DNA of 64,000 nucleotides from a virus (IMGVR_UViG_3300026097_000017:16074-80073), one strand, 5' to 3'; positions 7,557 through 47,020 are shown, numbered from the stretch's first letter. Notes: generated from the letters alone by a model not told the origin. Numbers and translations: made by a program.

Positions 7557-8581
7557 TAAAACTTACTCCAAAAATCGTCACTGTTTCTGGGAACATTAAT
7601 TGCTGTTGCTGACGGATAAGGATTGCTGCTAGAATAATCATTAATTAATATTCGTTCGCCATGAGGAACATCTAGCATCACATTAAAATTGACGAAACCG
7701 TTGTCGATCAAAAAGTCACGAACCTTCTCTTCAGTATATCCAGGTCTGCTAGATACAAACATAAAGTAAGCACCATCATCATGCATCTGCTTTAGTTTCT
7801 TAACCGCATTCGGAATACCAACTATATCTTCCTCAATACTGGGATAAAAATACTCTGACTGATGATTGATTAGCGTTCCATCTAAATCACAAAACACTAC
7901 TGGATATTTTCTTTTGAGATCGTGCCACTCTTTTGCCGTTCCCACATCAACGTAGTCATCAACCTCTACTGAAACAAATACTTCTGTTTCTAACAGTTTC
8001 TTGACAACATGCGAAACGAATCTTTCGTCATCCTGATTCAAAGACTCAAACGCATCACAGTATTCACCAGCGTTGTTGAAGCAGTAACCCCCTACAACAA
8101 TATGATTACTCACCACTGACTTCTCTACAATATTGGTGATGATATTTTGTTCGTTGGTGATTACGAAACTCTTTGCTGCAACATTCTGAACTTGTAAATT
8201 ATTTCTTAGATCTACAGTGCAAATATAGTTTGCTGCATTAACTCGATCAAACTTGAAATGTGCATCGCAATCTTGAATAAACAATGGTTCCTGATCATTA
8301 ATATTGATCGCTATCTGATAAACAGTATCGGCTGGACCTGTTGTTTCATGATCCAAGATAACTACCTGTACAGCGTCACCAAATGCTTTGTTCAGTGCGT
8401 GCTCAGCATTATAGTATTTTGCATGCTCTCTCAGTATCGGGATGAATATAGTATCCTCACCCAACCACTGTTCTGCTGCGTGCTCAATCATCATTCTACC
8501 GTCTGGCATACTGAGTAGATATTTTGGTCTAGTTCCTGGAAACCTTGAGGATTTTCCAGCGCATGGAATTATTACAGCCAT
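7556..8581 (-). CDS. Sugar nucleotidyltransferase / HAD phosphatase fusion
   Basis: A 341-residue bifunctional protein. Residues 1-225 form a nucleotidyltransferase of the sugar-1-phosphate type: MAVIIPCAGKSSRFPG with a downstream PKYLL, then the catalytic-site aspartates in IQDCDAHF. Residues 228-341 form a HAD-superfamily hydrolase with the nucleophile motif FCDLDGTL and later SSRPG. The two activities could make and trim an activated sugar. Downstream (next gene) is an APH-like kinase, so phosphorylation, activation and dephosphorylation of one metabolite are encoded together. Confidence 0.8.
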   Translation of the reverse strand: MAVIIPCAGKSSRFPGTRPKYLLSMPDGRMMIEHAAEQWLGEDTIFIPILREHAKYYNAEHALNKAFGDAVQVVILDHETTGPADTVYQIAININDQEPLFIQDCDAHFKFDRVNAANYICTVDLRNNLQVQNVAAKSFVITNEQNIITNIVEKSVVSNHIVVGGYCFNNAGEYCDAFESLNQDDERFVSHVVKKLLETEVFVSVEVDDYVDVGTAKEWHDLKRKYPVVFCDLDGTLINHQSEYFYPSIEEDIVGIPNAVKKLKQMHDDGAYFMFVSSRPGYTEEKVRDFLIDNGFVNFNVMLDVPHGERILINDYSSSNPYPSATAINVPRNSDDFWSKF

Positions 8582-9381
8582 ACTTTAGTCAACTCCCTGT
8601 TAATCAGAGCTTTATTCTCTTTTTCAATACAATATGCTCTTACTCTTAAAAGCATAAAACAATACAATGCCTGATTATTCATTTCACCATATTCTTCTTT
8701 CAATGATTTAGAAATTTTATCACAAACAATTTTATGATTGACAGTATTAGTTTTCTTTCTTAAGAACCAGTGTCCGTCTAAATCTTGTCTTAGCTTTGCT
8801 GCATCAAAAACCCAACTGTTAAATTCTGTTGGGTTAGGATCTATTAGATAAAACTTACCTTTCTTGTAAATGATATTTTCTAGCGTAAAATCACCATGGA
8901 TCGGTCCATATGGTAACACTTTGGGTAATCGCTCAATTAAATCAGCAGCCAACAATGGAGTCGGATCATCTTCATCAAACGCATTGAATAATCTGCGAAT
9001 CTTTTCTTCATACAGTTCACTGAAATCAAATGTCTCAGTTGCGTTTTCTTTAAAAGTATCTAACGACTTTTTCAAAAAAGCAATCAGCTTATCTAATTCT
9101 TCTATAGAAGCATACTCTATATAAGTGTACATGTCAATACCATCAATATGTTCCATGGTATAACAATCGTTAGAAACTTCATATATTTCAGGAGTATTAA
9201 ATCCTAGATGACGTAAATGATTTTGAAGTGCCGCAGCATCTTTTAATTTGTTGCTTCCGCATTTTTCAACAGCATATCTGCCGTCAGGATATTGTATTAG
9301 TTTCACGACGCACCCCGAGTGTCCAGTAAAATGCTTAAGAGTGTTGTAAAAGTTTGAGGACAGTTTCCGCAGTTTTGGCAT
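8572..9381 (-). CDS. Aminoglycoside/choline-type phosphotransferase
   Basis: A 269-residue kinase-fold protein. The catalytic loop is IHGDFTLENI and the metal-binding motif is LIDPN in YLIDPNPTEF, as in APH/choline kinase-like enzymes. A phosphate-transfer role on a sugar or choline-like compound is likely. The gene overlaps the 3' end of the GT61-like gene by 47 bases, unusually long for this genome, but no better internal start is visible. Confidence 0.75.
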   Translation of the reverse strand: MPKLRKLSSNFYNTLKHFTGHSGCVVKLIQYPDGRYAVEKCGSNKLKDAAALQNHLRHLGFNTPEIYEVSNDCYTMEHIDGIDMYTYIEYASIEELDKLIAFLKKSLDTFKENATETFDFSELYEEKIRRLFNAFDEDDPTPLLAADLIERLPKVLPYGPIHGDFTLENIIYKKGKFYLIDPNPTEFNSWVFDAAKLRQDLDGHWFLRKKTNTVNHKIVCDKISKSLKEEYGEMNNQALYCFMLLRVRAYCIEKENKALINRELTKVWL

Positions 9382-30970: not shown

Positions 30971-31109
30971 TTTCCTTAGATTCTTTGGACCATGAATAGG
31001 TTTCTGTCAAAACTAAAACCGTTCCTGCTATTAGTAGCCAAACATTATTATAAAAGAAACCTGACAAAAAAGCAAGGTGTCCGATAAAAACACCGAGTCT
31101 ATGACTCAT
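30957..31109 (-). CDS. 50-residue two-span membrane protein
   Basis: A short gene missed by length cut-offs. Its ATG (31109) lies within the last codons of uvsX and its TGA overlaps the first codons of the next gene, so it is wedged in by translational coupling on both sides. The product has two hydrophobic segments (GVFIGHLAFLSGFF; VWLLIAGTVLVLT) and a charged C-terminal tail (WSKESKENEDV). The early promoter at 31047-31075 lies inside its coding sequence. Function unknown. Confidence 0.65.
   Translation of the reverse strand: MSHRLGVFIGHLAFLSGFFYNNVWLLIAGTVLVLTETYSWSKESKENEDV
31047..31075 (-). promoter_or_regulatory. Early promoter (TTGCTT-17-TATAAT), inside a gene
   Basis: Minus strand TTGCTT at 31070-31075, 17-base spacer, perfect TATAAT at 31047-31052. 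Predicted start near 31040. It lies within the 50-residue membrane protein gene and would boost the 112-residue protein and helicase 41 independently of uvsX. Confidence 0.85.
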
Positions 31110-32151
31110 CTTCAACTACCTCAGGCTCAACTTCCTCATTACCATAAGTGAACTCAGCTTGAGCAGCTAGATCTAGTTGATGCAGTAAGTCTTCAGTAAA
31201 GTATTTTTCAGGATTCTTATAGATCTCTTTACCAAACACTTTCGTACCATCAGGCATTTCATATCGAGTAGAAACCTTCTTGATGATATCATATTTCTCA
31301 GCAAGTTCAAGTAACCCATAATACCGATCAAGTCCATTCGCATAAGACAGGCGAACCTCTACCTGACTATTTTCCTTTGTTAAACGCGACTTATGGAGTT
31401 TAGCTTTGATGATATTGCCTACGATATCTGTACCTTCTTTGTCCTTTTTCTTAGAAAGATAAACGATTGTAGAAGCAGTATATTTTAACCCTGAACCACC
31501 AGACATTTCTTTCATAGGAATATACGAACCGACCACATCATAAACATGGTTGGTTACAAGCAATGGTACTTGAATCTTAGCCAATGCTAGGTTAAGTACA
31601 CGGAACGTTGCCTTGAGTACCTGAGACTTGGTCATGTCTCTAGTTTCTTTACCGTCTGCAGTATCTTCAATCTCTTTAGTCGAAGATAACTGACCCAGAG
31701 AATCTAGCACCATCATCATTGGTTTGCGTGAATCTTCAGGCTGGTTTTTATACGTCTCGATGATTTTTAGCGCAGTATGACGAAACTTCTGAATTGTATC
31801 TGGTTCTGACACCGCAACTCTTGTAGTATCAATACCACGCGACTCCATCATTTCTTTAGTGACTGCAGCCTCAGTATCAAAATAAATGACACCCCCTTCA
31901 GGATTATCCTTTAGAAACTGTTGCATCACGCCAAGAACAAAGAATGTTTTACCAGTCGCTGATTCACCAGCAAATGTTGTAACTTTATTATTAGGAACAC
32001 CACCATAGATTGTTCCTGACAACGCAGCATTTAGGATATATGAACCTGTATCAATATACCCACTAAACTCACCAGACGATTTGCCATCTGCTGCAATATT
32101 AGTATCTTCATCTTTAATTTGTGTGACAATATCACGGAAAAAATCTGACAT
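31099..32151 (-). CDS. uvsX: Recombinase UvsX (RecA-like)
   Basis: A 350-residue strand-exchange protein (T4 UvsX: 391). Walker A is GESATGKTFF, with a Walker B region MMVLDSLGQLSS and VTNHVYD. With UvsY and gp32 it drives recombination-dependent replication. The start codon overlaps the stop of the TAGT-like glycosyltransferase gene (TAATG after a seven-T run), so it is coupled to it. The C-terminus is acidic (EVEPEVVEDES). Confidence 0.93.
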   Translation of the reverse strand: MSDFFRDIVTQIKDEDTNIAADGKSSGEFSGYIDTGSYILNAALSGTIYGGVPNNKVTTFAGESATGKTFFVLGVMQQFLKDNPEGGVIYFDTEAAVTKEMMESRGIDTTRVAVSEPDTIQKFRHTALKIIETYKNQPEDSRKPMMMVLDSLGQLSSTKEIEDTADGKETRDMTKSQVLKATFRVLNLALAKIQVPLLVTNHVYDVVGSYIPMKEMSGGSGLKYTASTIVYLSKKKDKEGTDIVGNIIKAKLHKSRLTKENSQVEVRLSYANGLDRYYGLLELAEKYDIIKKVSTRYEMPDGTKVFGKEIYKNPEKYFTEDLLHQLDLAAQAEFTYGNEEVEPEVVEDES

Positions 32152-32939
32152 TAAAAAAATCCTTCAAGTGTTGCTGTTTCTTCCTGACGACGATCTTTGA
32201 GCCGCAGTTCCGCATGCCCTGTAGTTTCTCTAATATACATCGTACAAAGTTCAGGAAACATTTTGGCGATCCTACTGATTGAGTCATACACATACTCTTT
32301 GGTACGCACCTCTTGAAGACCACCTTCTTCTTTGTAATAATTACTTTTCACAGTATAGTTATCTAATCGGCAAAGCACGTCATTCTTGACATACTGACGG
32401 AGACTGTACTCATAGTCCTCACCATGATTTGTCACTCTTGCCAAATAATCATCATGCTCTACGATCACACCGAACATCGATGCAATCACATAGCAGAGTT
32501 TAGTGTAAACACGATCTTTCATAAAGAACGCATTTGAAGCTGCATAGATGCCGAACGTTTTAGCACCAACCTGCTCAGCTTCAGTGAACCCTCTTATTAT
32601 AATCTCTTTTTCCAAATTGTCAATAGGTTCCAGCTTTTTATCATTCTTTCTTTGAACTTCTTGAACGTCATCATCAAACATCATCAAATATGTGCCTTCT
32701 GGATAATACCGTTCAATCCAGTTTCTTTGGGCTCCGATTGTAGGAACACCCTTTACAATATTTTGCCCATAAGGATTATCTTTTAGCGCATTTGAATATG
32801 TTTCAAACTCTTTATCATCAGCCACAAATACAGTGACACGCTCTGGATCAATATTATGGTGTTCAAATACTTTGAACGTCTTTTCTTGAATTGTTTTCGT
32901 ACGCTTATAGGATGGCACTGCAATTTTATAATCAATCAT
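32151..32939 (-). CDS. TET-associated-type glycosyltransferase (TAGT-like)
   Basis: A 262-residue protein. The start IAVPSYKRTKTIQ, then VFVADDKEF, GAQRNWI (69-75) and the metal-binding DDD (89-91) are the pattern of GT-A glycosyltransferases that accompany phage TET/JBP dioxygenases (the TAGT group). It would glycosylate the hydroxymethylated base made by the enzyme encoded immediately upstream, with a TAATG overlap. The protein ends TLEGFF, nearly identical to the ends of the dioxygenase and DNA polymerase, a likely sliding-clamp-binding peptide. Family assignment is from motif memory. Confidence 0.75.
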   Translation of the reverse strand: MIDYKIAVPSYKRTKTIQEKTFKVFEHHNIDPERVTVFVADDKEFETYSNALKDNPYGQNIVKGVPTIGAQRNWIERYYPEGTYLMMFDDDVQEVQRKNDKKLEPIDNLEKEIIIRGFTEAEQVGAKTFGIYAASNAFFMKDRVYTKLCYVIASMFGVIVEHDDYLARVTNHGEDYEYSLRQYVKNDVLCRLDNYTVKSNYYKEEGGLQEVRTKEYVYDSISRIAKMFPELCTMYIRETTGHAELRLKDRRQEETATLEGFF

Positions 32940-34369
32940 TAAAAAAATCCTTCTAGACTCGCTTTTTCTTCAACTGCTTCAGGATGATATTTTGCTAGTG
33001 TATCACGTCCACCGTGATGCTCTAGATATTGATACCATTCTTTAGAATCCCACATTCCTGGACTCACACCGTTCCAGTATGGACGCCATAGTACATGGTG
33101 CTCATTCAAACGACGATCATCAACAAACTGTCTTCGCAGTTTTTCATAATCATAAGAACCAAGCTGTAACATATCCTCGCGGAAATAAAACACCAAAGAC
33201 ATACGGAGGAAATCATCTTCACCTGAATCAGGTGCTTCAATCGGAGTGTTCGCATGAATCACTCGCATATTATCAATCAGCAACAAATCCCCTGGACGAA
33301 CATTGATTGCCGCACGAACTTCAGGAGCAACCAAATAACCACCTTTCCAACTCTTGCCTTCTTTAGTGACAACAGTCAGATTAGAGTATCCCTCATTCAA
33401 AGAACCTGCATCACGATGACTTGCCATTCGTGCATTACGATCTTTAGTTGTAGTATTTACAGTAATTGTAGTCAGCGTAGTATCTTCGCCTATCAGGAAT
33501 TTGTTGTCAATCGAGTCGGCACATTTTTTCTGCAACGCATAACGTTCAGGGAGCATCCGAGCAAACTCTTTATCAAGTTTCCTAGCAAATGGATAGCACT
33601 TTTCAAACTTCTCTAAGTTGTGTTCAGTGTAAGAAGTTGCTCGCCCATAAGGAATCCGAGGATATCTACCATAATACCCAGCGATACCTGACCAAATGGG
33701 AGTCGCATAAGAGGTTGCCGAGATCATAGTCTTAGCAATTTTCAAAGCATACTTAGCTGCGTCATCTACTGACATTTCAGCGAGTCGTTTCATCGCCTCA
33801 TCGAAAAAGCCTGTGTAGTTTTCAAACTCGGCTTCTACCTTCGTACGCAACCAAACACCGCCACGTGTTTCATACTTTTCAGTTTTATGACGCTCTACAA
33901 TTTCTTCTATCGGATCAGAGCCATCGATATTTTGAGGTGAGCCATCAATGTAATAATCAAGAATATCTTGTTGAAAAGGTGTCACCCAATCACGATTACC
34001 TGACTGCTCTGATCTTGGTCCAGCGGCAAGTCCTCGGTTATTAGATTCAACTGCTGCATCAAACAATCCTTCATACGCACCTTTCTGTTCTTCTTCGGTG
34101 AATACGTTTTTACGGAACTTGAATGCAATTTGCTGTTCACCTAGACAACCAATACATTGCCCATTACAATCTGTAGATTTGACTAAATCACAATCAGGTG
34201 GAAGATAAAAATCTGCATCATTGTCGATTAGAATATCGTAATCATTCTCGTCTACATATTTACCGAGAAGATCTTCTTTGTTGTCAGCGAACAAGGCAAT
34301 ATAAACGTCTTGACCTTCGTCACCTTTATACTTCTGCCAAGATCTGCCGCCAATGGTTACTGTTTCCAT
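32939..34369 (-). CDS. TET/JBP-like 2OG-Fe(II) DNA dioxygenase
   Basis: A 476-residue protein. The C-terminal part carries the 2-oxoglutarate dioxygenase core: HRD (H318/D320) in RMASHRDAGS, then WKGGYLVAPE, the strand RPGDLLLID, the distal histidine (H372, RVIHANTP) and a 2OG-binding Arg (R389, FLRMSLVF). The order fits the TET/JBP family, which oxidises the methyl group of 5-methylcytosine or thymine in DNA. An N-terminal Cys cluster (60, 68, 72, 75) may bind metal. It ends SLEGFF. The start at 34369 has GGAG upstream and follows its own early promoter. The oxidised base is not known. Confidence 0.75.
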   Translation of the reverse strand: METVTIGGRSWQKYKGDEGQDVYIALFADNKEDLLGKYVDENDYDILIDNDADFYLPPDCDLVKSTDCNGQCIGCLGEQQIAFKFRKNVFTEEEQKGAYEGLFDAAVESNNRGLAAGPRSEQSGNRDWVTPFQQDILDYYIDGSPQNIDGSDPIEEIVERHKTEKYETRGGVWLRTKVEAEFENYTGFFDEAMKRLAEMSVDDAAKYALKIAKTMISATSYATPIWSGIAGYYGRYPRIPYGRATSYTEHNLEKFEKCYPFARKLDKEFARMLPERYALQKKCADSIDNKFLIGEDTTLTTITVNTTTKDRNARMASHRDAGSLNEGYSNLTVVTKEGKSWKGGYLVAPEVRAAINVRPGDLLLIDNMRVIHANTPIEAPDSGEDDFLRMSLVFYFREDMLQLGSYDYEKLRRQFVDDRRLNEHHVLWRPYWNGVSPGMWDSKEWYQYLEHHGGRDTLAKYHPEAVEEKASLEGFF

Positions 34370-34392
34370 ATAAGTTCTCCATGTATGCAATC

Positions 34393-34421
34393 ATTATAAC
34401 TTATTTACACAAACTTATCAA
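34393..34421 (-). promoter_or_regulatory. Early promoter (TTGATA-17-TATAAT)
   Basis: Minus strand TTGATA at 34416-34421, 17-base spacer, perfect TATAAT at 34393-34398. Predicted start near 34386, a 17-base leader for the dioxygenase. The promoter overlaps the end of the AT-hook membrane protein gene and serves the dioxygenase, TAGT-like and uvsX genes. Confidence 0.85.
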
Positions 34422-35241
34422 GCAGTTTTTTCTTTTCTACTTTAGGTGGACGTCCACGCTTTTTAGGTTTGTGTTGTTCAATCAACTGTTGAGTTCTCAC
34501 TTTTTTACGCTGTTCCTTCAGCGATATACTAGCAGCTATCACAAGCAGCACTGCTAATGGATCAAATACAAAAATAATAATCAGAATGACAAATCGTACT
34601 GCCTTCTCTAAAACTTGCTGATCAGGATTGTCACCAAATATCAATTCTGCAATGAACGCAAGAGGACCGACTTCCGCTTTAAAAGCTGACACTTGAAGCT
34701 GAATCTGTGCCAACTCGTCTTGAAGCGAGATGATCTTATTGGACGCTTGATTGATGGATTCCTGGATTTTCTCACGTTCCTCAGTCTGACTTTCTCTTGC
34801 CTCAAGTCCCTTAGAAACTGCCCCAAGCTCGATATATCTTTGTAATGCATCATCAAGCTGTTCCAGAATGGCTTCATTCCGCTCGATTTCCCGATTCTCT
34901 CTCTGAATTCTGGTTTCAATCTGTGTCGCTTTGATGGTAGACTCATTTAAACCTGCTCCCTGATCAATATGTGCTTTCGATAAAAATCCAAAGATACCCA
35001 TTGATGTGATAAACATCAACAGCACAACTGCACCAGTGAGATAATATTTCAATGCTCTAGGTGCAACTTCCCAGTTTTGATGCAGCCATGCCGCAGTCAA
35101 AAGTTTACCTGCTTCCAACACGATACCCATGATCACAATCGCAGTAAAACTCGCAGCGAATATAGCTGTCAATCCAATGATTGAGTAATACGCAGCTACA
35201 GTAGCAATAGCAATCGCTGTAATTAAAGTTGCTATAACCAT
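34405..35241 (-). CDS. AT-hook membrane protein with coiled coil
   Basis: A 278-residue protein with an unusual layout: three N-terminal membrane segments (about 3-22, 26-50, 66-88), a soluble coiled coil (100-190), one more membrane segment (about 215-240), then a basic tail containing KKRGRPPK, a classic AT-hook that inserts into the minor groove of A/T-rich DNA. The tail would face the cytoplasm. It sits between DNA polymerase and the base-modification genes, so it may tether phage DNA or the replisome to the membrane. Function unproven. Confidence 0.7.
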   Translation of the reverse strand: MVIATLITAIAIATVAAYYSIIGLTAIFAASFTAIVIMGIVLEAGKLLTAAWLHQNWEVAPRALKYYLTGAVVLLMFITSMGIFGFLSKAHIDQGAGLNESTIKATQIETRIQRENREIERNEAILEQLDDALQRYIELGAVSKGLEARESQTEEREKIQESINQASNKIISLQDELAQIQLQVSAFKAEVGPLAFIAELIFGDNPDQQVLEKAVRFVILIIIFVFDPLAVLLVIAASISLKEQRKKVRTQQLIEQHKPKKRGRPPKVEKKKLLDKFV

Positions 35242-35543
35242 TAACTTTCGCTTCTTGTGATTGCTAAGATATCCTCGATCTTCTCTTCAATAATTTGTTT
35301 ACGTCCTGGCCAATAAATGTATTCTTTGTCAGATGTGTTTAGCAGATTGACTAACAAAGGCATTATCATTTGTTCAACCATTTGTAGTTTTTCGGCAGCA
35401 GATCTTTCTAAAGTATTGCGAACGCTGTCAACAACTTCTTCAATCTTGGTGTCAGTAGCAGCATTGTATTCTGCTTCACTAACTGCACTAAAACCAAAAT
35501 CGTTATCATTTGACAAATATTCCTGTGGTATTTTAATAGCCAT
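35241..35543 (-). CDS. 100-residue hypothetical protein next to gp43
   Basis: A helical, acidic protein (MAIKIPQEYLSNDNDFGF...). The ATG at 35543 overlaps the stop of gp43 (TAATG), favouring this start over a longer frame. It ends overlapping the AT-hook gene in the same way. The neighbourhood suggests a replication-associated accessory, but there is no motif. Confidence 0.65.
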   Translation of the reverse strand: MAIKIPQEYLSNDNDFGFSAVSEAEYNAATDTKIEEVVDSVRNTLERSAAEKLQMVEQMIMPLLVNLLNTSDKEYIYWPGRKQIIEEKIEDILAITRSES

Positions 35544-38017
35544 TAGAAAAAGCTCTCCAGTGTACTTTGTTTCTCTACATCCCAACCAATCTTAGAGGTG
35601 ATCACCTTTAGTGGTTCTAGGAATGACTTTTCGAATTGTGTATCATAATCAATATACTTATTTAAGTCAAGCTCTTCTGGCATGTTAGACAGAATAGAGA
35701 TGACATTTTCACCGATACTATTTGGCGTTTTCAAATAACAGAATTTAATTTTCTCGCCTTCTTGGATCGGCTGATATTTTTTAGTCAATCCTTTTTTGTC
35801 AAGAAGATGATTAAACAGCAACGCACCTCTAACATGAATCGGTGTTCCTGATGAGTAGATATCTGAAGAATCAGCATACTTTGCTAATCCTTTAACTCCT
35901 CTCGGGAAAGCCACATCTTCAAACGGCATCTTTTTAAACTTCTCACGGCTATCGGTAACAAACTGATGAAGTAATGATTCGTCGCCCTCCATAATAAGTT
36001 GCAGTGCTTCTTTAATCATTTCACGGCAAGCATATGGAGTTGAAGATTTTACAGCCTCAATACCCATCATCTTGAGTTTCGGTTCATTATACCTCACACC
36101 CTCAGAATCATGAACATTCAGAATGTATCTTTTCTTAGCAGTCCAGATACCTTTATCAGCAATAACTTCTCGAGCCATCACCATCTTGTTCTGATAGGCT
36201 CCCATATAATTCGCAAGCTCTTCATAGGACTCAGTAATAAATTTCTCAAATCTTTCTTCACAAACAGTATTCAAAAAATCGACTGGACTTTTAGGATTGA
36301 ACTTTTTGACCAACTCATCCATGCGGACATAGATAGAATCAGTATCAATCGCAATCACATAATCTTCATCAGTGCCCAGCAACTTGTTCATGTACTGGTT
36401 TACTTTCTTTTCAATCCATCTGATTGAGAGTTGTCCTGAGATGGTGATTGCTTCTCCGAGTTTGACGTCGAAGAATCTGAAGTATTTGTTTCCGATTGCT
36501 CCATAGGCTGAGTTGAGGGAGATTTTTTTTGCCATCTGGATGTTATGGTATTTAGATATTGAGTTGCGTAGGCGAATCTTCTCCTTCTCATCAGCTGTAC
36601 CTTTCTTGCTTTCCAGTTCCTTCTGCGCATTGATCATTTCCTTCTTATAGAAAACACGATCATTGTACATCTTCTGCATCAATTCAGGCAAGAACCCTTG
36701 GAAGTCCTTGCGGAAATAGTGACCATTTGCCGCCAAGCAGTATTCAGTTTCATTAGGATATTGTTCAGTCAAAAGTTTATTAACAGAGGTGTCAATATGT
36801 TTGCCTTCTACCAAAGTATCAGGCGAAATATTATACTGCATCATTAAGTGAGGATACAGACTATTTAGGTCAAAGGAGACAACCCAGTCGTGCATTCCGA
36901 CTTGCGGTTCTTTTACATAAGCACCTTCAATCTGACCATCTTTATCCCGATCCTCCATTTGAGGAACAACAACATTTTTAGAAAGTAGATGGTTATGAAT
37001 GATTGTGTCCCACATCCGAACCTGTGTCATCACATCATTTAAATTCACCTTTGCGTCATACGCAAGAGCAAGCGCAAGTTCAATCAGCTTCAGCTTATCG
37101 TCTAGTTTCTGAACCAACTCAACGTCTTTGATGTTGTATTCAATAAACTTCTGATAGTCTTCTTTGTATAACTGGTGAAGAGAGTTGTATTCAGAATAAT
37201 CAATCTTCTTTTCACCGAGCTCTACGAAAGCGATATTATCCAACCGATATGATTCTTGCTGAGTATAAGTAAACTTCTTATACATTTCAAGATAATCCAA
37301 ACTAACGATGCCGCAAAGAACATACGCATAGTTCTGCCTGTTCATCAGTCTCACGATGCGCTCTTCAACCTGCCCCCAAGGAGAAAGTTTTTTAGCCATG
37401 CGTTCATCAAACTTCTTTTCAATGCGACGATACAGATAAGGAATATCAAAGAACTGAGTGTTCCAGCCTGTGATGATATCGACATCCATTTTCTGCCACA
37501 TATCAAGGAATTTGAGTAACAGATCATTCTCATTATTACAACGAATGTAACGGACATCTTCCCTATGCTGCTTGTATTCGCCTATACCGAGAACCCAATA
37601 AACTCCTTTAAAGTATATCGTGATTGCAGTGATCGGCTCAGCAACGTCCGCAGGATCAGGGAAACCAGACTCAGAGCCAACCTCAATATCAATATTGGCG
37701 ACTCTAATTAAGTTTACATCGTAATCAACTTTAGGATATTGTTCATTGATAAAACAATATTCATATTTGTTAGACCCATAGATTTCAAAGTTTTGTATAT
37801 CACCATATTTGGCAATAAATTCTTTGGCATCTGAAATGGTGCCTTGTTTGACAGGTTCAACAGGAATACCTTTAACTGTTTTGAAGTTAGAAGGTTTGTT
37901 GGTCGGGATGTAGAGTGTTGGTGAGTAAGGAACACGTTCGTGGAACCGCTTTCCGTTGCGATAACCACGAACGTAGATTTTATCACCTCTACGAAGAAAG
38001 TTCGTATAAAATTCCAT
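35543..38017 (-). CDS. 43: DNA polymerase (gp43, family B)
   Basis: An 824-residue family B polymerase (T4: 898). The exonuclease motif is ANIDIEV (D110, E112). Polymerase motifs are DLNSLYPHLM (motif A), LNSAYGAIGN (motif B) and AIDTDSIYV (motif C). It ends TLESFF, the position where T4 gp43 binds the gp45 clamp. The start MEFYTNFLRRGD agrees with the T4 N-terminus (MKEFYIS). The early promoter places its transcription start at about the base before the ATG, so the mRNA may be leaderless. Confidence 0.95.
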   Translation of the reverse strand: MEFYTNFLRRGDKIYVRGYRNGKRFHERVPYSPTLYIPTNKPSNFKTVKGIPVEPVKQGTISDAKEFIAKYGDIQNFEIYGSNKYEYCFINEQYPKVDYDVNLIRVANIDIEVGSESGFPDPADVAEPITAITIYFKGVYWVLGIGEYKQHREDVRYIRCNNENDLLLKFLDMWQKMDVDIITGWNTQFFDIPYLYRRIEKKFDERMAKKLSPWGQVEERIVRLMNRQNYAYVLCGIVSLDYLEMYKKFTYTQQESYRLDNIAFVELGEKKIDYSEYNSLHQLYKEDYQKFIEYNIKDVELVQKLDDKLKLIELALALAYDAKVNLNDVMTQVRMWDTIIHNHLLSKNVVVPQMEDRDKDGQIEGAYVKEPQVGMHDWVVSFDLNSLYPHLMMQYNISPDTLVEGKHIDTSVNKLLTEQYPNETEYCLAANGHYFRKDFQGFLPELMQKMYNDRVFYKKEMINAQKELESKKGTADEKEKIRLRNSISKYHNIQMAKKISLNSAYGAIGNKYFRFFDVKLGEAITISGQLSIRWIEKKVNQYMNKLLGTDEDYVIAIDTDSIYVRMDELVKKFNPKSPVDFLNTVCEERFEKFITESYEELANYMGAYQNKMVMAREVIADKGIWTAKKRYILNVHDSEGVRYNEPKLKMMGIEAVKSSTPYACREMIKEALQLIMEGDESLLHQFVTDSREKFKKMPFEDVAFPRGVKGLAKYADSSDIYSSGTPIHVRGALLFNHLLDKKGLTKKYQPIQEGEKIKFCYLKTPNSIGENVISILSNMPEELDLNKYIDYDTQFEKSFLEPLKVITSKIGWDVEKQSTLESFF

Positions 38018-38058: not shown

Positions 38059-38493
38059 TTAACTATTTTCTTCCCTGTATGCATCCAAAGTCTTCTTGAA
38101 TTTATTTGCGTGAGATCTTTCTGCTTTTGCTAGAGTCTCAAACCAATCAGCAATTTCATCATAACCTTCATCACGAGCAGTCTTAGCCATTCCTGGATAC
38201 ATGTCTGTATACTCATGAGTTTCACCTGCAATAGCAGACTCAAGAGCCTCTTCAACAGTTTTAGCTGGCAATCCAGTTTCAGGATCTCCTGCTCCACCGT
38301 CGATGAGATATTCCATATGTCCATGCGCATGACCAGTTTCGCCTTCCGCAGTATTACGGAAAACGTTCGCTACATCTGGTGCACCTTGTACGTCAGCTTC
38401 ATTAGCAAAGTACAGGTAGCGACGGTTGGCTTTAGACTCACCTGCGAATGCATCTTTCAATGCTTGTTCAGTTTTAGTACCTTTCAAACTCAT
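38059..38493 (-). CDS. Rubrerythrin-type diiron protein
   Basis: A 144-residue four-helix ferritin-like protein. All seven expected diiron ligands are in place: E19, E52-x-x-H55, E91, E94, E125-x-x-H128, in the order of bacterial rubrerythrins. There is no C-terminal rubredoxin domain, so it would need an external electron donor. Rubrerythrins reduce hydrogen peroxide. Protection of phage iron enzymes (NrdB, the dioxygenase) or of the cell during infection is a plausible reason for its presence. It lies between the endopeptidase and polymerase genes. Confidence 0.88.
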   Translation of the reverse strand: MSLKGTKTEQALKDAFAGESKANRRYLYFANEADVQGAPDVANVFRNTAEGETGHAHGHMEYLIDGGAGDPETGLPAKTVEEALESAIAGETHEYTDMYPGMAKTARDEGYDEIADWFETLAKAERSHANKFKKTLDAYREENS

Positions 38494-39036: not shown

Positions 39037-39468
39037 CTATTTGATTTCTACAGTTTTGGGTTTCTTAGCTTCTGGAATAATACGCTCCAAAGCAATCTTT
39101 AGCATGCCGTTGAGCATTTCCGCATTTTGAACCTCGACAGCATCGTTCAAATTGAACGTGCGAGTAAATGGACGGAAAGCCAGACCTTGATATAAAAATT
39201 CGTTTTTGTCATCCTGCGCAGCATTACCTTTGACAGTTAGCTTATCGCCTGCTACATTGATTTCAATATCAGTCTTTCCGAAACCAGCAACAGCCATTTC
39301 AATGACATATGTGTTTTCATCAGTTTTCTTGATATTGTATGGTGGATAGTTGGGAATGTTTTTAGACATGTTGTCATGAAACTCATTGAGTTTGTTAAAA
39401 ACATCGTCATAACCAATTAGAAACTTATCAAGATCTTTATGCGTAAATGTTGGAAGTAATGTTGTCAT
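39037..39468 (-). CDS. Small heat-shock protein (Hsp20)
   Basis: A 143-residue alpha-crystallin family chaperone. The central domain runs from about residue 40 (NIKKTDENTYVIEMAVAGF) through the strand GDKLTVKG to FRPFTRTF, with a C-terminal MLKIALERIIPE. It should hold unfolded proteins, perhaps during capsid assembly. Hsp20 genes are common in marine T4-like phages. It is flanked by a CCTAAATA late core upstream and a strong hairpin downstream, so it forms a separate unit. Confidence 0.9.
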   Translation of the reverse strand: MTTLLPTFTHKDLDKFLIGYDDVFNKLNEFHDNMSKNIPNYPPYNIKKTDENTYVIEMAVAGFGKTDIEINVAGDKLTVKGNAAQDDKNEFLYQGLAFRPFTRTFNLNDAVEVQNAEMLNGMLKIALERIIPEAKKPKTVEIK

Positions 39469-39771: not shown

Positions 39772-40176
39772 TTACTTTTTCTTGCCAATATTGTACTTGG
39801 CAACTAAATTCCACTCTTCACGTTCCTTGTAAGGAAGGATTTTAATTTGTGAGAGTGGGCTCGTTGGTGTAGCCGTTTTTGACGGATCCACCAAATCAAT
39901 CAACTCCCATTCGGCGAGAAGATTGATTACAGTATTCCGTCTGGCCATGTCATCTTCATTTGGCCAGTTAGTTGGTTTACCATCGAGAGCAAACAGTTCT
40001 TTAAAATGAACTATAAAATATCTGCCTTGCTTGTGTAGAATATGACAAGATTGAAATAATGTCTTATCTTTCTTTGAAGCAATGCCGATGCGAGTCAAAG
40101 TCTCTCGCACTTTCAAAAAGTCATCCTGTTCTTTTAATTTTATCTCAATCATTGAAGACATATCAAAGATTGTCAT
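39772..40176 (-). CDS. regA: Translational repressor RegA
   Basis: A 134-residue protein strongly resembling T4 RegA (122 residues): MIEIKLKEQDDFLKVRETLT, FQSCHILHKQGRYFIVHFKE and the C-terminal YNIGKKK. It binds the start regions of early mRNAs and blocks their translation. It has an eight-residue N-terminal extension if the start at 40176 is used; AGGTGG before that ATG and the ATGA overlap with gp62 favour it, but 40152 would match T4 exactly. Confidence 0.93.
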   Translation of the reverse strand: MTIFDMSSMIEIKLKEQDDFLKVRETLTRIGIASKKDKTLFQSCHILHKQGRYFIVHFKELFALDGKPTNWPNEDDMARRNTVINLLAEWELIDLVDPSKTATPTSPLSQIKILPYKEREEWNLVAKYNIGKKK

Positions 40177-40547
40177 TTCATTCCACCTTTATCAAGTTTT
40201 GTTTTTATTAATTTTATTTGTTCTTTGGTGAGAACTTTCTCAGCGTCACATGCCTTAGTGTAAGAATAATTATAATATTCCATAAGCATTTCTACTGTGG
40301 CAGACTTACTTTTTTTATGCCATCCGAAACGTTTTCTTTTACGAACAGTATTTAGTAAAAACTCATATTGTAATTTATTGTCAATATGGTGGTAGAAATT
40401 CATCTCATTGCCATGATGCACAGTATCAATATGCATTGACATGGCACGATTAACAAGGAAGGAAGAATATTCTTTCTCCGCTTGCTTGTCAGTCATCAAA
40501 TCCTTTTTACTTTCATTGATAGAATTTACAAAATCAAATGGATTCAT
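40173..40547 (-). CDS. 62: Clamp loader small subunit (gp62-like)
   Basis: A 124-residue protein, shorter than T4 gp62 (187), assigned mainly by position between gp44 and regA (the T4 order is 45-44-62-regA-43) and by similarity in style to marine-phage gp62 (MNPFDFVNSINESKKDL). The start at 40547 overlaps the stop of the small membrane protein gene as ATGA. It should complete the 44/62 clamp loader that opens the gp45 ring. Confidence 0.7.
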   Translation of the reverse strand: MNPFDFVNSINESKKDLMTDKQAEKEYSSFLVNRAMSMHIDTVHHGNEMNFYHHIDNKLQYEFLLNTVRKRKRFGWHKKSKSATVEMLMEYYNYSYTKACDAEKVLTKEQIKLIKTKLDKGGMK

Positions 40548-40714
40548 AATCCCAATAATCCCCAACCGTGATTGGCTACAGCATTTAGGATAATAAAAAT
40601 CCCAACAAAAAGCTCGAACACCACAATAATAGTACGAACGATTGCAACTCTGTCAGCTTTACTGTCATCATCATATGCCTTAGATCCTAATGCTTTAGCC
40701 CAAATATTCCACAT
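40544..40714 (-). CDS. 56-residue membrane protein within the clamp operon
   Basis: A short protein (MWNIWAKALGSKAYDDD...) with one membrane segment (about 27-50, IIVVFELFVGIFIILNAV). The ATG at 40714 overlaps the gp44 stop (TAATG) and its own stop overlaps the gp62 start. It separates gp44 from gp62, which are adjacent in T4. Function unknown. Confidence 0.65.
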   Translation of the reverse strand: MWNIWAKALGSKAYDDDSKADRVAIVRTIIVVFELFVGIFIILNAVANHGWGLLGL

Positions 40715-41652
40715 TATTGAAACGCACATTCTGACATAATTTCAGTCAGACATGCTACGAGATTAACTTCTTGATCCGCAACGAATGCAGACTTGTAAGA
40801 ATACTCAGCGACTATCAAGACCAAAGATGGTACTGATTCAGGTTTCATGTAATCAGTTGCGGAGTCATATAGTTTACGATACATCATGACAGGATCATTG
40901 TCAATATTTTCCACAACCCATTTACGAACTTCTTTGAAGTTCCTTTCTTTCATGTGTTGTATTAGACTTTTGATAGATACATCTACTAAATTTACTAGAA
41001 TACCTGTGTCTATCTTTCCTGACACTGAATACCGCTGTAATTCATTCAGCACCCGACGGAAGTCAGGGAAGTGCTTCATGATTACCTGAGCAACAACCTT
41101 TTCTTCATACTCAATATGTTCTTGAGAAAGAATCCCATGAATACGCTTCATCAGCTGAGCTGCTAATTTTGGCTTTTCATTGTTAGGAATCTTGAACTCT
41201 ATTACTGAGCACCTTGAATGGAGAGGAGATATAATGCGGTTAGCAAAATTACAAGTAAGTATAAACCCACAATTATTACTAAACTCCTCCATAAAGTTGC
41301 GAAGAGCAGGCTGAGTAGATTGGGGATTGAGATAATCAGCCTCATCAAGGATGACATACTTACGACCACCATCAAAACTGACAGTGCTAGCAAAATTACG
41401 AATGTCATTCCGAAGAGTATCGATGTTTCCATTCATTGAACCATTGATAATAATATAATCACAACCGAGTTCTTCTAGCATGGCGCGAGCAACTGTAGTT
41501 TTGCCCATACCTGCTCCACCTGTGAGAAGAAGGTTAGGAACGTTTCCCTGTTTAATGAACTCTTTAAACGTTTCCTTCATCTCAGGTGAGAGAATCGTAT
41601 CATCCACTGTGCGTGGGCGATACTTCTCTACCCATAAAAAATCATCTCTCAT
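40714..41652 (-). CDS. 44: Clamp loader large subunit (gp44)
   Basis: A 312-residue AAA+ ATPase (T4: 319). Walker A is GGAGMGKTT, Walker B ILDEADYL and the arginine-finger SRC motif is HSRCSVIEF. Four copies with one gp62 load the gp45 clamp using ATP. Normal length, all key residues present. It follows gp45 by 17 bases. Confidence 0.95.
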   Translation of the reverse strand: MRDDFLWVEKYRPRTVDDTILSPEMKETFKEFIKQGNVPNLLLTGGAGMGKTTVARAMLEELGCDYIIINGSMNGNIDTLRNDIRNFASTVSFDGGRKYVILDEADYLNPQSTQPALRNFMEEFSNNCGFILTCNFANRIISPLHSRCSVIEFKIPNNEKPKLAAQLMKRIHGILSQEHIEYEEKVVAQVIMKHFPDFRRVLNELQRYSVSGKIDTGILVNLVDVSIKSLIQHMKERNFKEVRKWVVENIDNDPVMMYRKLYDSATDYMKPESVPSLVLIVAEYSYKSAFVADQEVNLVACLTEIMSECAFQ

Positions 41653-41669
41653 AATATAGACCTCAAAAA

Positions 41670-42341
41670 TTAAGAATTATACTGGGAATTAGATTCTAAA
41701 GCAATCCAGTATTCTAAATTTGCATCAACTGATTTAAAATGCGAGATACCCTTTGAAGAGATCTGTACATTATAATCACCGTTGATCAGTTTGAGGTTTT
41801 CAGTTTTAAAGATCATGCGGAACTCAGCATCAGTTTCACCAACTGTCATGGAGAATGTGTCACTTGAGTCATTCTTAACATCAAGAGCAGTCAACTTGAT
41901 AGTTTCACCATCACCCACTACAGCGATTTCAGGCAAACTCATCACACCACAAGCACGTTGTACTTTCTGCAAAATATCATGACTCAGCTGGAACTGAATC
42001 TCTGCCTCAGGGAAGTTGGGACTCTTCTCTGGTGGCTTAGTGATGATAGATTCATCAGCATAACCATAGCGAGTCTTTTGCCCATTGTTATCTACAATCT
42101 CTAGACTAGTGTCATTCACATTCACTTCTGGCTCTTCGAACAAGTCAAGAACAGAAATGAAACGATTTAGTTCGTAGATACCAAAGTTGCGTTCAAAGTT
42201 CTCATCAACCTGCGCTTTGGCTAGAATATTTTTTCTAGGAGAAACTGTTGCCAGCGTATTTCCTTCTTTGAACATCATACTAGAATTAATAGTAGAAAAG
42301 TTCTTCAGGATGTTAATTGTATTTTCACTAATTTTCATCAT
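41670..42341 (-). CDS. 45: Sliding clamp (gp45)
   Basis: A 223-residue clamp subunit (T4: 228), recognisable from its opening (MKISENTINILKNFSTIN) and position before gp44-gp62-regA. Three copies form the ring that holds gp43 on DNA and, in T4, activates late transcription through gp55 and gp33. Here it is the probable partner of the LE(G/S)FF tails of polymerase, dioxygenase and glycosyltransferase. The start may be the second ATG (42338). Confidence 0.92.
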   Translation of the reverse strand: MMKISENTINILKNFSTINSSMMFKEGNTLATVSPRKNILAKAQVDENFERNFGIYELNRFISVLDLFEEPEVNVNDTSLEIVDNNGQKTRYGYADESIITKPPEKSPNFPEAEIQFQLSHDILQKVQRACGVMSLPEIAVVGDGETIKLTALDVKNDSSDTFSMTVGETDAEFRMIFKTENLKLINGDYNVQISSKGISHFKSVDANLEYWIALESNSQYNS

Positions 42342-42345
42342 TACC

Positions 42346-43203
42346 TCACTTCTTCATTTTTTCAATCATATTTTGATCAGCTGTAGGAGATGCCCCAACA
42401 GCAGCCAATGCTTGTAGTGTTCCACCAAAAATGTACATACCTACATGCTTCAGTTCCATCCAAGGCAGATACCAAACTTTGGAATCTGATTCCCTCGCAT
42501 ATTGACAGAACATGTAATCTTCAGAAAGATAACGTTTAGTTTTGTCATCAATCAATGCTTGGAAGTACATCATGATTTCACGAGAGCCATCAAAGTTTTT
42601 CGTACGAACATGGTCAGGTTTGTATGAATAGTCTGGCCATTTTTCAGCAAACCGATTAAACACCTTCTTCTTAATCATCATGAATCCTGTACCACCCTCA
42701 AGCACTTCGACAGGTTCATTCAGTTTAATTTCAGTAGTTCCTGGAACTGGGTTGAAAACATAATCCCCAACAAAAGCATCTAGTGCTGAGGGATTGTCAT
42801 CAGCATACCCCTTATCGACAGCTTTAGCAACCTTTTCCCATGCGATAGTTTTCTTAGGATATGGACCACAGAGAACATCATATTCATTATTCTCATCTTC
42901 ATCATCCATCATTGCTGCCATGGTTAGGATATAGTTCGGATCAAATCCGATGTCACTATCAATAAACATGAGATGAGTACAGTCAGAACGAATGAACTCA
43001 TCAACCAAATAGTTGCGAGCACGTGTAATCAGTGACTCATTAAACAAGTAGAAAAACCGCACATCAATACCATACTTGGCTGCCAACGTAGCAAGTTCTG
43101 TACACGATTTAGTGTAAACCCCAGCACATTGTCCACCATACATTGGTGTCGCAACGAAGATTTTTTTCTTTCTCAACTCATCAACAGAAATTTCAACTTC
43201 CAT
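42346..43203 (-). CDS. GT-A type glycosyltransferase-like protein
   Basis: A 285-residue protein. The pattern KKIFVATPMYGGQC, then HLMFIDSDIGFDP (a DxD-type metal motif) is that of GT-A glycosyltransferases; later FVGDYVFNPVPGTTE and a C-terminal helix follow. It lies between deformylase and gp45, so it could belong to replication-linked DNA modification or to surface glycosylation. It lacks the clamp-binding tail seen in the TAGT-like protein. Confidence 0.65.
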   Translation of the reverse strand: MEVEISVDELRKKKIFVATPMYGGQCAGVYTKSCTELATLAAKYGIDVRFFYLFNESLITRARNYLVDEFIRSDCTHLMFIDSDIGFDPNYILTMAAMMDDEDENNEYDVLCGPYPKKTIAWEKVAKAVDKGYADDNPSALDAFVGDYVFNPVPGTTEIKLNEPVEVLEGGTGFMMIKKKVFNRFAEKWPDYSYKPDHVRTKNFDGSREIMMYFQALIDDKTKRYLSEDYMFCQYARESDSKVWYLPWMELKHVGMYIFGGTLQALAAVGASPTADQNMIEKMKK

Positions 43204-45426: not shown

Positions 45427-46469
45427 TCGAGATCTAGTGCCTCATGGTATAAGTTTATCAATAATCCTTCTAACTTTTTCTGATTAGAAGTTTGCACACC
45501 GCTGACATATTTCTTCAAAATAGTCATCGTATCTTCAGCTTCATTTACCAAATCATCATCATTGGTCTGATCAATATTCATATGGTCGTCCACCACTGCA
45601 ACATCATAAACTCCACTACGATATAACTTATCAAGGAAAATGTCAAACGCTGTGGGATCTTTTTTTGTTCGGACGATAACTTTCACAAAACACCCTTCAT
45701 ACAAATCGTATTCATGCTTTTGTGGTTTGCTGTCATCATAAATGATTTTGTAGAATAACCGATGAGGATTACGAACTTCCACCAAGTCTCCTGTATCAGT
45801 GTCAAAAATATGAAACCCACGCCAGTCATTATAGTCTGACCATGTCATTTCATAAGGAGAGCCAAGATAAGTGAGATTGTCTCGAGACGATTTGTGATGA
45901 AAATGACCAGAAAATACTCTGTCGAATTTACTGAATACATTAGTTTGTAGTCCATGATGATTTACCGATCCTCTATACATTTCAAACCCTTGCACTTCTA
46001 AATGACCAAATGCATACTTAGCATCAGTCTTGTTCAAAAGCTCAAAAGTTTCTTCTTCATTTTCAGGGCAGATCCAAGGAATCATCATCAATTTAGTATT
46101 GTCAATCGTGACTTCCTGTGGATCCATTACTAGATTAAAACCATACTCAGATTTAGAATACAGTTCACGCAAAGCATTTACATGTATCGTGTTCTTGTAA
46201 TATGAGTCATGATTTCCCACAATAAAATGCGCTTCGATACCACGTTCATGGATCGGAAGCATCATATCATCTTCTAAATTTCTGGCAGTAACATAATTGA
46301 TTTGTTTTCTTTTGTCAACTAGATCACCAAGATGAATTAAATGTTTAATATTATGCTTGTCAAGATATGGGAAAAAGAACTCATGGTAGAACTTCTTCAT
46401 ATGATTCGCAAACACAATATTATCATTGCGCACACCAAAGTGTGTATCAGTAATTAAAGCAACTTTCAC
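45423..46469 (-). CDS. 47: Recombination nuclease subunit gp47 (Mre11/SbcD-like)
   Basis: A 348-residue phosphoesterase (T4: 339) with the metal-binding motifs DTHFGV, LGDLVD, GNHDSY and SGHFHHKS. It is the catalytic partner of gp46. Start and stop overlap both neighbours by four bases (ATGA), forming the 55-47-46 operon. Confidence 0.95.
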   Translation of the reverse strand: MKVALITDTHFGVRNDNIVFANHMKKFYHEFFFPYLDKHNIKHLIHLGDLVDKRKQINYVTARNLEDDMMLPIHERGIEAHFIVGNHDSYYKNTIHVNALRELYSKSEYGFNLVMDPQEVTIDNTKLMMIPWICPENEEETFELLNKTDAKYAFGHLEVQGFEMYRGSVNHHGLQTNVFSKFDRVFSGHFHHKSSRDNLTYLGSPYEMTWSDYNDWRGFHIFDTDTGDLVEVRNPHRLFYKIIYDDSKPQKHEYDLYEGCFVKVIVRTKKDPTAFDIFLDKLYRSGVYDVAVVDDHMNIDQTNDDDLVNEAEDTMTILKKYVSGVQTSNQKKLEGLLINLYHEALDLE

Positions 46470-47020
46470 TCTGCGTCATCCTCGATGAAGTTTTCTATTC
46501 CTACTTTCTTTTTCGCCTTTTTACGCTTTTCAAGATTAGACTCAAATGTTACCATAAAGTCATCCATATATTCCTGAGCATAATCATTATGAAATGGGCG
46601 ATTCATTTCTGGAGTTGCTTCTTCAGCCTGAACCATCTCCATAATTGTAATATTCTTAGTGGAACTGTATTTGACGTAGAGCTGTTTCTTTTCTTTTTGA
46701 ATCCTGCGTAAAAATGCATAATAGATTATCTGCGTGAAATACGCAAAAGGATTACTACTTTTGTCAGGATTAAAATTATTGATGTATTGAACACAGTTCT
46801 CCACACCATCAGAGATCATATCTTCTCTAAATTGATAGCTTATGAAGTTTGGCTTGGTGGATAATCTTCGAGCGATCATCAAAAAACATTCACCCACATA
46901 ATTGGGAATGATTGGTTTTTCCTTGCCTTCTTTTTCAGCCTGTTTTACTTTTTCTCGATACTCGATGAGTGAGTTGAGAAACTCTTTGTTGTTGATATAA
47001 TGAGTTGATTTTCGTGCCAC
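46466..47020 (-). CDS. 55: Late sigma factor gp55
   Basis: A 184-residue protein (T4: 185), the sigma factor that directs host RNA polymerase to TATAAATA late promoters. Recognised by its position and by the central region resembling sigma-70 region 2 (AYFTQIIYYAFLRRIQKEK). It starts with GTG at 47020. Near the C-terminus it has VGIENFIEDD, similar to the clamp-binding tails of other proteins here; in T4 the gp55 C-terminus contacts gp45. This links late transcription to replication. Confidence 0.85.
   Translation of the reverse strand: MARKSTHYINNKEFLNSLIEYREKVKQAEKEGKEKPIIPNYVGECFLMIARRLSTKPNFISYQFREDMISDGVENCVQYINNFNPDKSSNPFAYFTQIIYYAFLRRIQKEKKQLYVKYSSTKNITIMEMVQAEEATPEMNRPFHNDYAQEYMDDFMVTFESNLEKRKKAKKKVGIENFIEDDAE

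Follow-up and report, generated by a model that had tools for sequence, protein, structure and literature searches.

A 64,000-nucleotide stretch of a virus record (IMGVR_UViG_3300026097_000017:16074-80073; hereafter the window) carries on its minus strand two adjoining genes for a TET/JBP-family 2-oxoglutarate (2OG)-Fe(II) dioxygenase and a TET-associated glycosyltransferase (TAGT). We read this pair as a two-step cassette for post-replicative pyrimidine hypermodification that is tethered to the phage replisome, with thymine as the most probable target, and assign this reading a probability of about 0.58. In the first step the dioxygenase would act on a base that is part of the DNA, most probably thymine, and hydroxylate its 5-methyl group to give 5-hydroxymethyluracil (5hmU); in the second step TAGT would put a sugar on the new hydroxyl, yielding a base-J-like glycosyl-5hmU. 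Both enzymes would dock via their C-terminal tails on gp45 clamps that stay on the DNA after the fork has passed, and would act on the nascent duplex, and the base-J-like mark may block restriction or CRISPR nucleases. This suggests that the phage DNA is disguised while it is being copied.

The dioxygenase gene (32939-34369, 476 aa) starts with the ATG at 34369, and its product consists of an N-terminal region (residues ~1-235) followed by a double-stranded beta-helix domain. It matched Pfam Tet_JBP (PF12851) with 2e-14 and 53.6 bits (curated cut-off 34.9) and phrog_24024 of the PHROGs with 7e-150. The Fe(II)/2OG residues are H318-R-D320, H372, and R389; H318, D320, H372, and R389 are invariant in 25 relatives. 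In a profile of diverse phage members the HRD, the distal His, and the 2OG Arg align with HRD, LHATTP, and RIS of human TET2. When the AlphaFold2 (AF2) model (mean predicted local distance difference test, pLDDT, 75.9) was compared with the PDB, CcTet, NgTet1, and TET2 occupied ranks 1-21, followed by FTO (ranks 22-23) and CMD1 (ranks 24-28). By these comparisons the product is confirmed as a TET/JBP dioxygenase. In databases, homologues are called 'SNF2 DNA repair protein', a label that was rejected for the window protein, in which Pfam finds no SNF2 domain; a match to phrog_6059 ('queuine tRNA-ribosyltransferase') is weak (7e-5) and lies over the oxygenase core.

The second gene (32151-32939, 262 aa) is confirmed by Pfam, fold, and motifs as a TET-associated GT-A glycosyltransferase. 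Its product matched the Pfam TAGT family (PF20691) with 1e-16 and 61.9 bits (curated cut-off 27.5), phrog_25200 with 9.5e-45, and phrog_842 (beta-glucosyl-hydroxymethylcytosine-alpha-glucosyltransferase) with 5e-19. The SYKR motif is found at residues 9-12 and DDD at 88-90; in 26 diverse TAGTs D88 and D89 do not vary. The AF2 model (pLDDT 89.6) gave GT-A/GT2 fold matches and shows a disordered linker leading to a short helix at the extreme C-terminus. The dioxygenase, TAGT, and uvsX genes follow each other in this order, each stop sharing one base with the next ATG (TAATG at 32939 and 32151); the UvsX-like recombinase (31099-32151) was identified with phrog_97 (1e-83). A set of 80 TAGT loci was fetched after the tail motif described below had been defined on earlier material, and served to test that motif. 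All 78 loci having upstream sequence contain a TET gene, and in 63 of these 78 the two genes overlap or lie at most 20 nt apart. An earlier note, made by a model from the window sequence, had placed the genes at these positions and described the HRD, distal His, and 2OG Arg in TET/JBP order, the SYKR and DDD motifs of the TET-associated group, and the operon coupling to uvsX; all of this was borne out. Profile searches, which according to that note could have placed the dioxygenase with non-nucleic-acid oxygenases, ranked TET first, as did the fold searches, and cassettes of the kind that it took to be known from phages are indeed on record.

The evidence for a link to the replisome comes from the ends of the proteins. 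The record, a virus fragment of 80,073 bases, has 116 gene-like open reading frames (ORFs), of which just three end in [ST]LE.FF, namely the dioxygenase (SLEGFF, 32942-32959), TAGT (TLEGFF, 32154-32171, following the disordered linker), and the gp43-like family B DNA polymerase (35543-38017; phrog_262, E = 0), which ends in TLESFF (35546-35563). All full-length dioxygenases in our alignment end in some version of this motif. In the TAGT loci the tail was found in 5/5 family B polymerases, 46/56 TETs, and 44/54 TAGTs, and in none of 593 other ORFs; it was likewise missing from the ends of 26 clamps and 4 UvsX proteins, and the window UvsX also lacks it. Fisher's test gives ~1e-59, a value which is overstated, as the rows are related. 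The exceptions are mostly near variants (SLAGFL, VDLEDFFA, STLGDLF, ATLSDFF). The tail is clearly absent in L197, L198, L199, and L201 and in one further TET (L145), and a search of the whole contigs found no T4-type polymerase in L197, L198, and L201. In the tail-positive 136-kb contig G057 no polymerase match was obtained either, so that contigs may be incomplete or the polymerase search imperfect; a clamp gene does lie near this locus. Also without the tail are the TETs of P12024L, HTVC112P, and the actinobacteriophages and the dioxygenase of S-CBWM1; the Cr30 dioxygenase has only a remnant-like ATLF. Second-step partners of other families in the relatives (GT4, ADDT, GNAT; see below) end in the tail as well.

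In T4 the tails of gp43, gp33, and gp55 bind gp45, and tails of the gp43/gp55 type are interchangeable (PMC2988020); T4 alpha-glucosyltransferase (alpha-GT) also binds gp45 (PMC13216743; Sommer 2004). We compared the T4 ends KASLDFLFG of gp43, SLDFLYEAND of gp55, and FDIITK of alpha-GT. By their likeness to the gp43 end SLDFLFG, the tails of the dioxygenase, TAGT, and the polymerase are of the acidic-hydrophobic, sliding-clamp-binding type, and by this motif and the T4 precedent they would bind the clamp. The proposed docking partner, a gp45-type sliding clamp, is encoded in the window (41670-42341; phrog_223, 4e-78), together with the gp44-type large subunit (40714-41652; phrog_168, 1e-122) and the gp62-type small subunit (40173-40565; phrog_225, 3e-39) of the clamp loader. 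Like uvsX and the polymerase gene, these three genes lie on the minus strand. Fork-tethered modification is the best reading of these ends, and the shared tails account for the coupling to replication better than the adjacency to uvsX does. To our knowledge, TET, TAGT, or ADDT proteins with clamp tails have not been described before.

Some further ends were recorded. In C48C1 the tail is confined to three proteins: the polymerase, the dioxygenase, and a DNA methyltransferase of the D12 class (PF02086); this N6-adenine enzyme, whose gene adjoins that of the polymerase, ends in STLDAFFG (L090 13980-14864; C48C1 33480-34364), and clamp tails may thus mark Dam-type enzymes too. The gp55-like late sigma factor of the window (46466-47020) ends in GIENFIEDDAE, a looser tail like that of T4 gp55. 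In a single locus, L198, tandem TAGTs (7721-8503 and 8500-9294) end in QETLFS and QKTLFDMI, which resemble the bacterial beta-clamp motif QxxLF; as stated above, no T4-type polymerase was detected on this contig.

Regarding the target base, we searched for genes that could supply a substrate. The C5-methyltransferase family PF00145 was found in none of 78 related records, comprising 24 dioxygenase records (among them the complete phages C48C1, DLP6, Cr30, and S-CBWM1), 45 TAGT contigs of up to 155 kb, and 9 other TET-carrying records. PF00303 (thymidylate synthase/hydroxymethylase) occurred in one of 69 records, that of Cr30. In a control set of 14 genomes the searches for the two families scored in 9-11. 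The window record contains ThyX and neither PF00145, PF00303, nor ADDT. The absence of a substrate-making methyltransferase or hydroxymethylase from the window, which the earlier note had pointed out, therefore holds for the whole 80-kb fragment, where that note had called for a search, and for PF00145 extends to the 78 records. There is no visible phage source of 5-methylcytosine (5mC) or of hydroxymethylated nucleotides made by a PF00303 enzyme, and thymine is always available.

The second-step genes of the relatives point in the same direction. At 45 dioxygenase loci from IMG/VR and phages the neighbouring second-step gene varies: TAGT, GT4, the amino acid:DNA transferase ADDT (PF18724) with a P-loop kinase, or a pyridoxal phosphate (PLP) enzyme. 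Further partner sets are an epimerase with a gene resembling UDP-galactopyranose mutase (the latter by sequence reading), and a class II amidotransferase with an amidoligase-like protein and a GNAT acetyltransferase. ADDT, assigned by its Pfam name, was found in 11 of 25 dioxygenase records and in 0/14 controls; TAGT was found in five of the 25, and among these five only Cr30 also has ADDT. The kinases of L012 and Cr30 belong to phrog_800, which includes the ViI protein named '5-hmdU DNA kinase' by Pfam. In ViI, M6, and phiW-14 the kinase acting on 5-hydroxymethyldeoxyuridine (5hmdU) in DNA and transferases are part of thymidine hypermodification (PMC6449724). The presence of ADDT and 5hmdU-kinase-like partners thus argues that the dioxygenase would supply 5hmU.

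A third line of evidence is the residue five positions after the first iron-binding His (H+5), which reads the N4 group of cytosine in known enzymes (Asn1387 in TET2, Asp234 in NgTet1, Asp350 in CMD1); docking to CMD1 suggests that thymine cannot use Asp350 favourably (PMC11040006, PMC7854593). In the window dioxygenase this residue is Ser323 (33401-33403), that is, neither Asn nor Asp as in 5mC-oxidising TETs. Among the sequences listed, Ser is present in all that are at least 62% identical to the window dioxygenase and Asp or Asn in the rest, and in the tree the Ser-type rows fall into a single, fully supported clade of 18. The sister contig L122 is instructive in this respect. Its whole operon has ~86-90% DNA identity to the window and its TAGT is 95% identical, whereas its dioxygenase is a 50%-identical Asp-type allele. 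The flanks and TAGT being conserved, the dioxygenase has been exchanged as a unit while TAGT stayed; the replacement is gene-sized (window 32974-34392, L122 3623-4895). This suggests that Ser- and Asp-type dioxygenases feed the same TAGT, or that TAGT is tolerant. As sole classifier of the base, H+5 was rejected: Ser and Asp types each occur with ADDT and with TAGT. By this comparison Ser would fit thymine better than Asp does, but the residue alone is not decisive, because Asp-type phages also lack a source of 5mC. Taking together the missing C5-methyltransferase, the ADDT and kinase partners, and Ser323, we regard thymine as the likely target base and cytosine as a rather unlikely one. The earlier note had left the target base open; the evidence now favours thymine for the window clade.

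We considered three other explanations of the pair. The clamp-docked cassette could act on cytosine, a host C5-methyltransferase or one missed by Pfam providing 5mC, which TET would oxidise to 5-hydroxymethylcytosine (5hmC) for glycosylation by TAGT. Published phage systems of methyltransferase, TET, and glycosyltransferase work in this way, as far as they are described in PMC12730594 (citing Burke 2021), the T2/T6 members of PF20691 glucosylate modified cytosine (PMC13216743), and most sister TETs retain the Asp that reads cytosine N4. Against this, PF00145 scored in the controls and in none of the records, even though four of the phage genomes among these are complete and some contigs measure 134-155 kb; 5mC of host origin would be sparse and unreliable; and the relatives have thymidine-hypermodification partners and the window clade has Ser323. 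We therefore consider modification of cytosine rather unlikely. A different possibility is that the pair does not act on nucleic acids, the dioxygenase having a small molecule or glycan as substrate and TAGT being a surface-glycan transferase. The best direct PDB sequence matches of the dioxygenase (phmmer) are indeed clavaminate synthases (E = 1.5e-4), and the GT-A fold matches of TAGT include teichoic-acid transferases. The identity as clavaminate synthase was dropped because the match covers only ~55 residues round the distal His and both profile and fold searches place TET first. Moreover, TAGT is linked to TET in every locus in which this could be seen, both genes lie among replication genes, and their tail is common with the polymerase, which makes a function outside nucleic acids very improbable.

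Finally, the pair could modify bases while the shared tail is no clamp peptide: the proteins may have a different partner in common, or the likeness may have arisen by chance where gene ends are coupled. Clamp binding is deduced here from the motif and the T4 precedent, and the tail codons GAAGGA-TTTTTT of the window double as a Shine-Dalgarno-like sequence ahead of the following start codon. A by-product of ribosome binding or translational coupling was nevertheless rejected, because carriers differ in the codons used and several of them are not followed by a coupled gene. The tail is conserved at the protein level with varied codons, is found in uncoupled genes and at the end of the polymerase, resembles SLDFLFG of T4 gp43, and is missing from TETs on contigs in which the search found no T4-type polymerase; we judge a tail unrelated to the clamp to be quite improbable. 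Several observations nonetheless weigh against the clamp-docked, thymine-directed cassette that we prefer. The docking would follow from motif likeness and the T4 precedent, and in T4 itself the contact between alpha-GT and gp45 was reported not to be the main determinant of glucosylation levels (PMC13216743); the ViI modification enzymes checked have no such tail. The absence of PF00145 is not peculiar to the window family, because it is missing as well for other phage TETs, those of phages in which no T4-type polymerase was detected. The PF00145 comparison ran without a methyltransferase-linked phage TET as positive control (an IMG/VR scan with an Arthrobacter phage TET found no relative), and the window record is a fragment. 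TETs of the sister clades likewise come without a C5-methyltransferase, and at the N4-reading position they retain Asp, the residue that in known enzymes favours cytosine; TAGTs that are 95% identical adjoin either a Ser- or an Asp-type dioxygenase.

Other genes of the region are mentioned for completeness. Between the polymerase and the dioxygenase lies a predicted membrane coiled-coil protein (34405-35241) with no confident family match. Upstream of the polymerase a rubrerythrin-like (38059-38493) and an Hsp20-like protein (39037-39468) were recognised by sequence reading. A conserved protein (42346-43203; phrog_1574) has a weak Anp1 glycosyltransferase match, and a protein with the same weak match occurs near TAGT in 46/80 loci. 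Two tRNA genes, Asn(gtt) and Arg(tct), are found at 1476-1634. On the same record, outside the window, a GT4 glycosyltransferase and a weakly GT8-like protein (L001 12335-13330 and 1736-2428) have no clamp tails and are possible sources of further glycosylation.

Phage cassettes of TET and glycosyltransferase, a gp45-binding alpha-GT, and thymidine hypermodification were already known; new are the predicted clamp docking and the missing source of 5mC, and an earlier prediction of thymine as substrate may exist. As of 2019, no phage was reported to contain glucosylated 5hmdU (PMC6449724). If the reading is true, it predicts the first base J of a phage and supplies a second route to 5hmU-based hypermodification, one needing no altered nucleotide pool. 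A C-terminal clamp tail would be a simple rule marking DNA-modifying enzymes in T4-like phages, the reading would explain how long genomes are modified during copying, and the enzymes could become new tools for the enzymatic labelling of thymine in DNA. In its widest form the proposal would be that a widespread group of T4-like phages makes base-J-type glycosylated 5hmU from thymine in nascent DNA, the dioxygenase and an interchangeable TAGT, GT4, ADDT, or acetyltransferase all being hung on the clamp, and that hypermodification is thereby a built-in activity of the replication fork; this extension we put forward tentatively, at slightly less than even odds.

Of the known systems, the phage C5-methyltransferase/TET/glycosyltransferase systems (Burke 2021, as cited in PMC12730594) likewise encode TET and glycosyltransferase together for stepwise oxidation and glycosylation in polymer DNA, whereas here PF00145 is absent, clamp-type tails are present, and the window clade has Ser at the N4-reading position. 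Base J of kinetoplastids is made by a dioxygenase of the same superfamily (JBP1/2) and a separate glycosyltransferase (JGT), and the window pair would also act on T in DNA; the differences are the prokaryotic virus and the replisome tails. The thymidine hypermodification of ViI, M6, and phiW-14 resembles the present case in that ADDT and kinases of the same PHROG adjoin close homologues of the window dioxygenase. These phages incorporate 5hmdU, on which kinase and transferases then act, whereas here 5hmU would arise from T after replication; 68 of 69 records lack PF00303, relatives have ADDT and the kinase without it, the window record has neither PF00303 nor ADDT, and the ViI enzymes checked are tail-less. 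The beta-glucosyl-hydroxymethylcytosine alpha-glucosyltransferase of T2/T6 belongs to the Pfam family of the window TAGT (PF20691/phrog_842) but extends a sugar already present on 5hmC; here neither a T4-type first glucosyltransferase nor a deoxycytidylate (dCMP) hydroxymethylase (PF00303) was seen. T4 alpha-GT on gp45 (PMC13216743) offers the parallel of a DNA glycosyltransferase docked on a phage sliding clamp, as is predicted here. In contrast to this GT-B enzyme, which acts on 5hmC and ends in FDIITK without a gp43-like tail, the tails described here are found on the enzymes of both steps and on several unrelated enzyme families.

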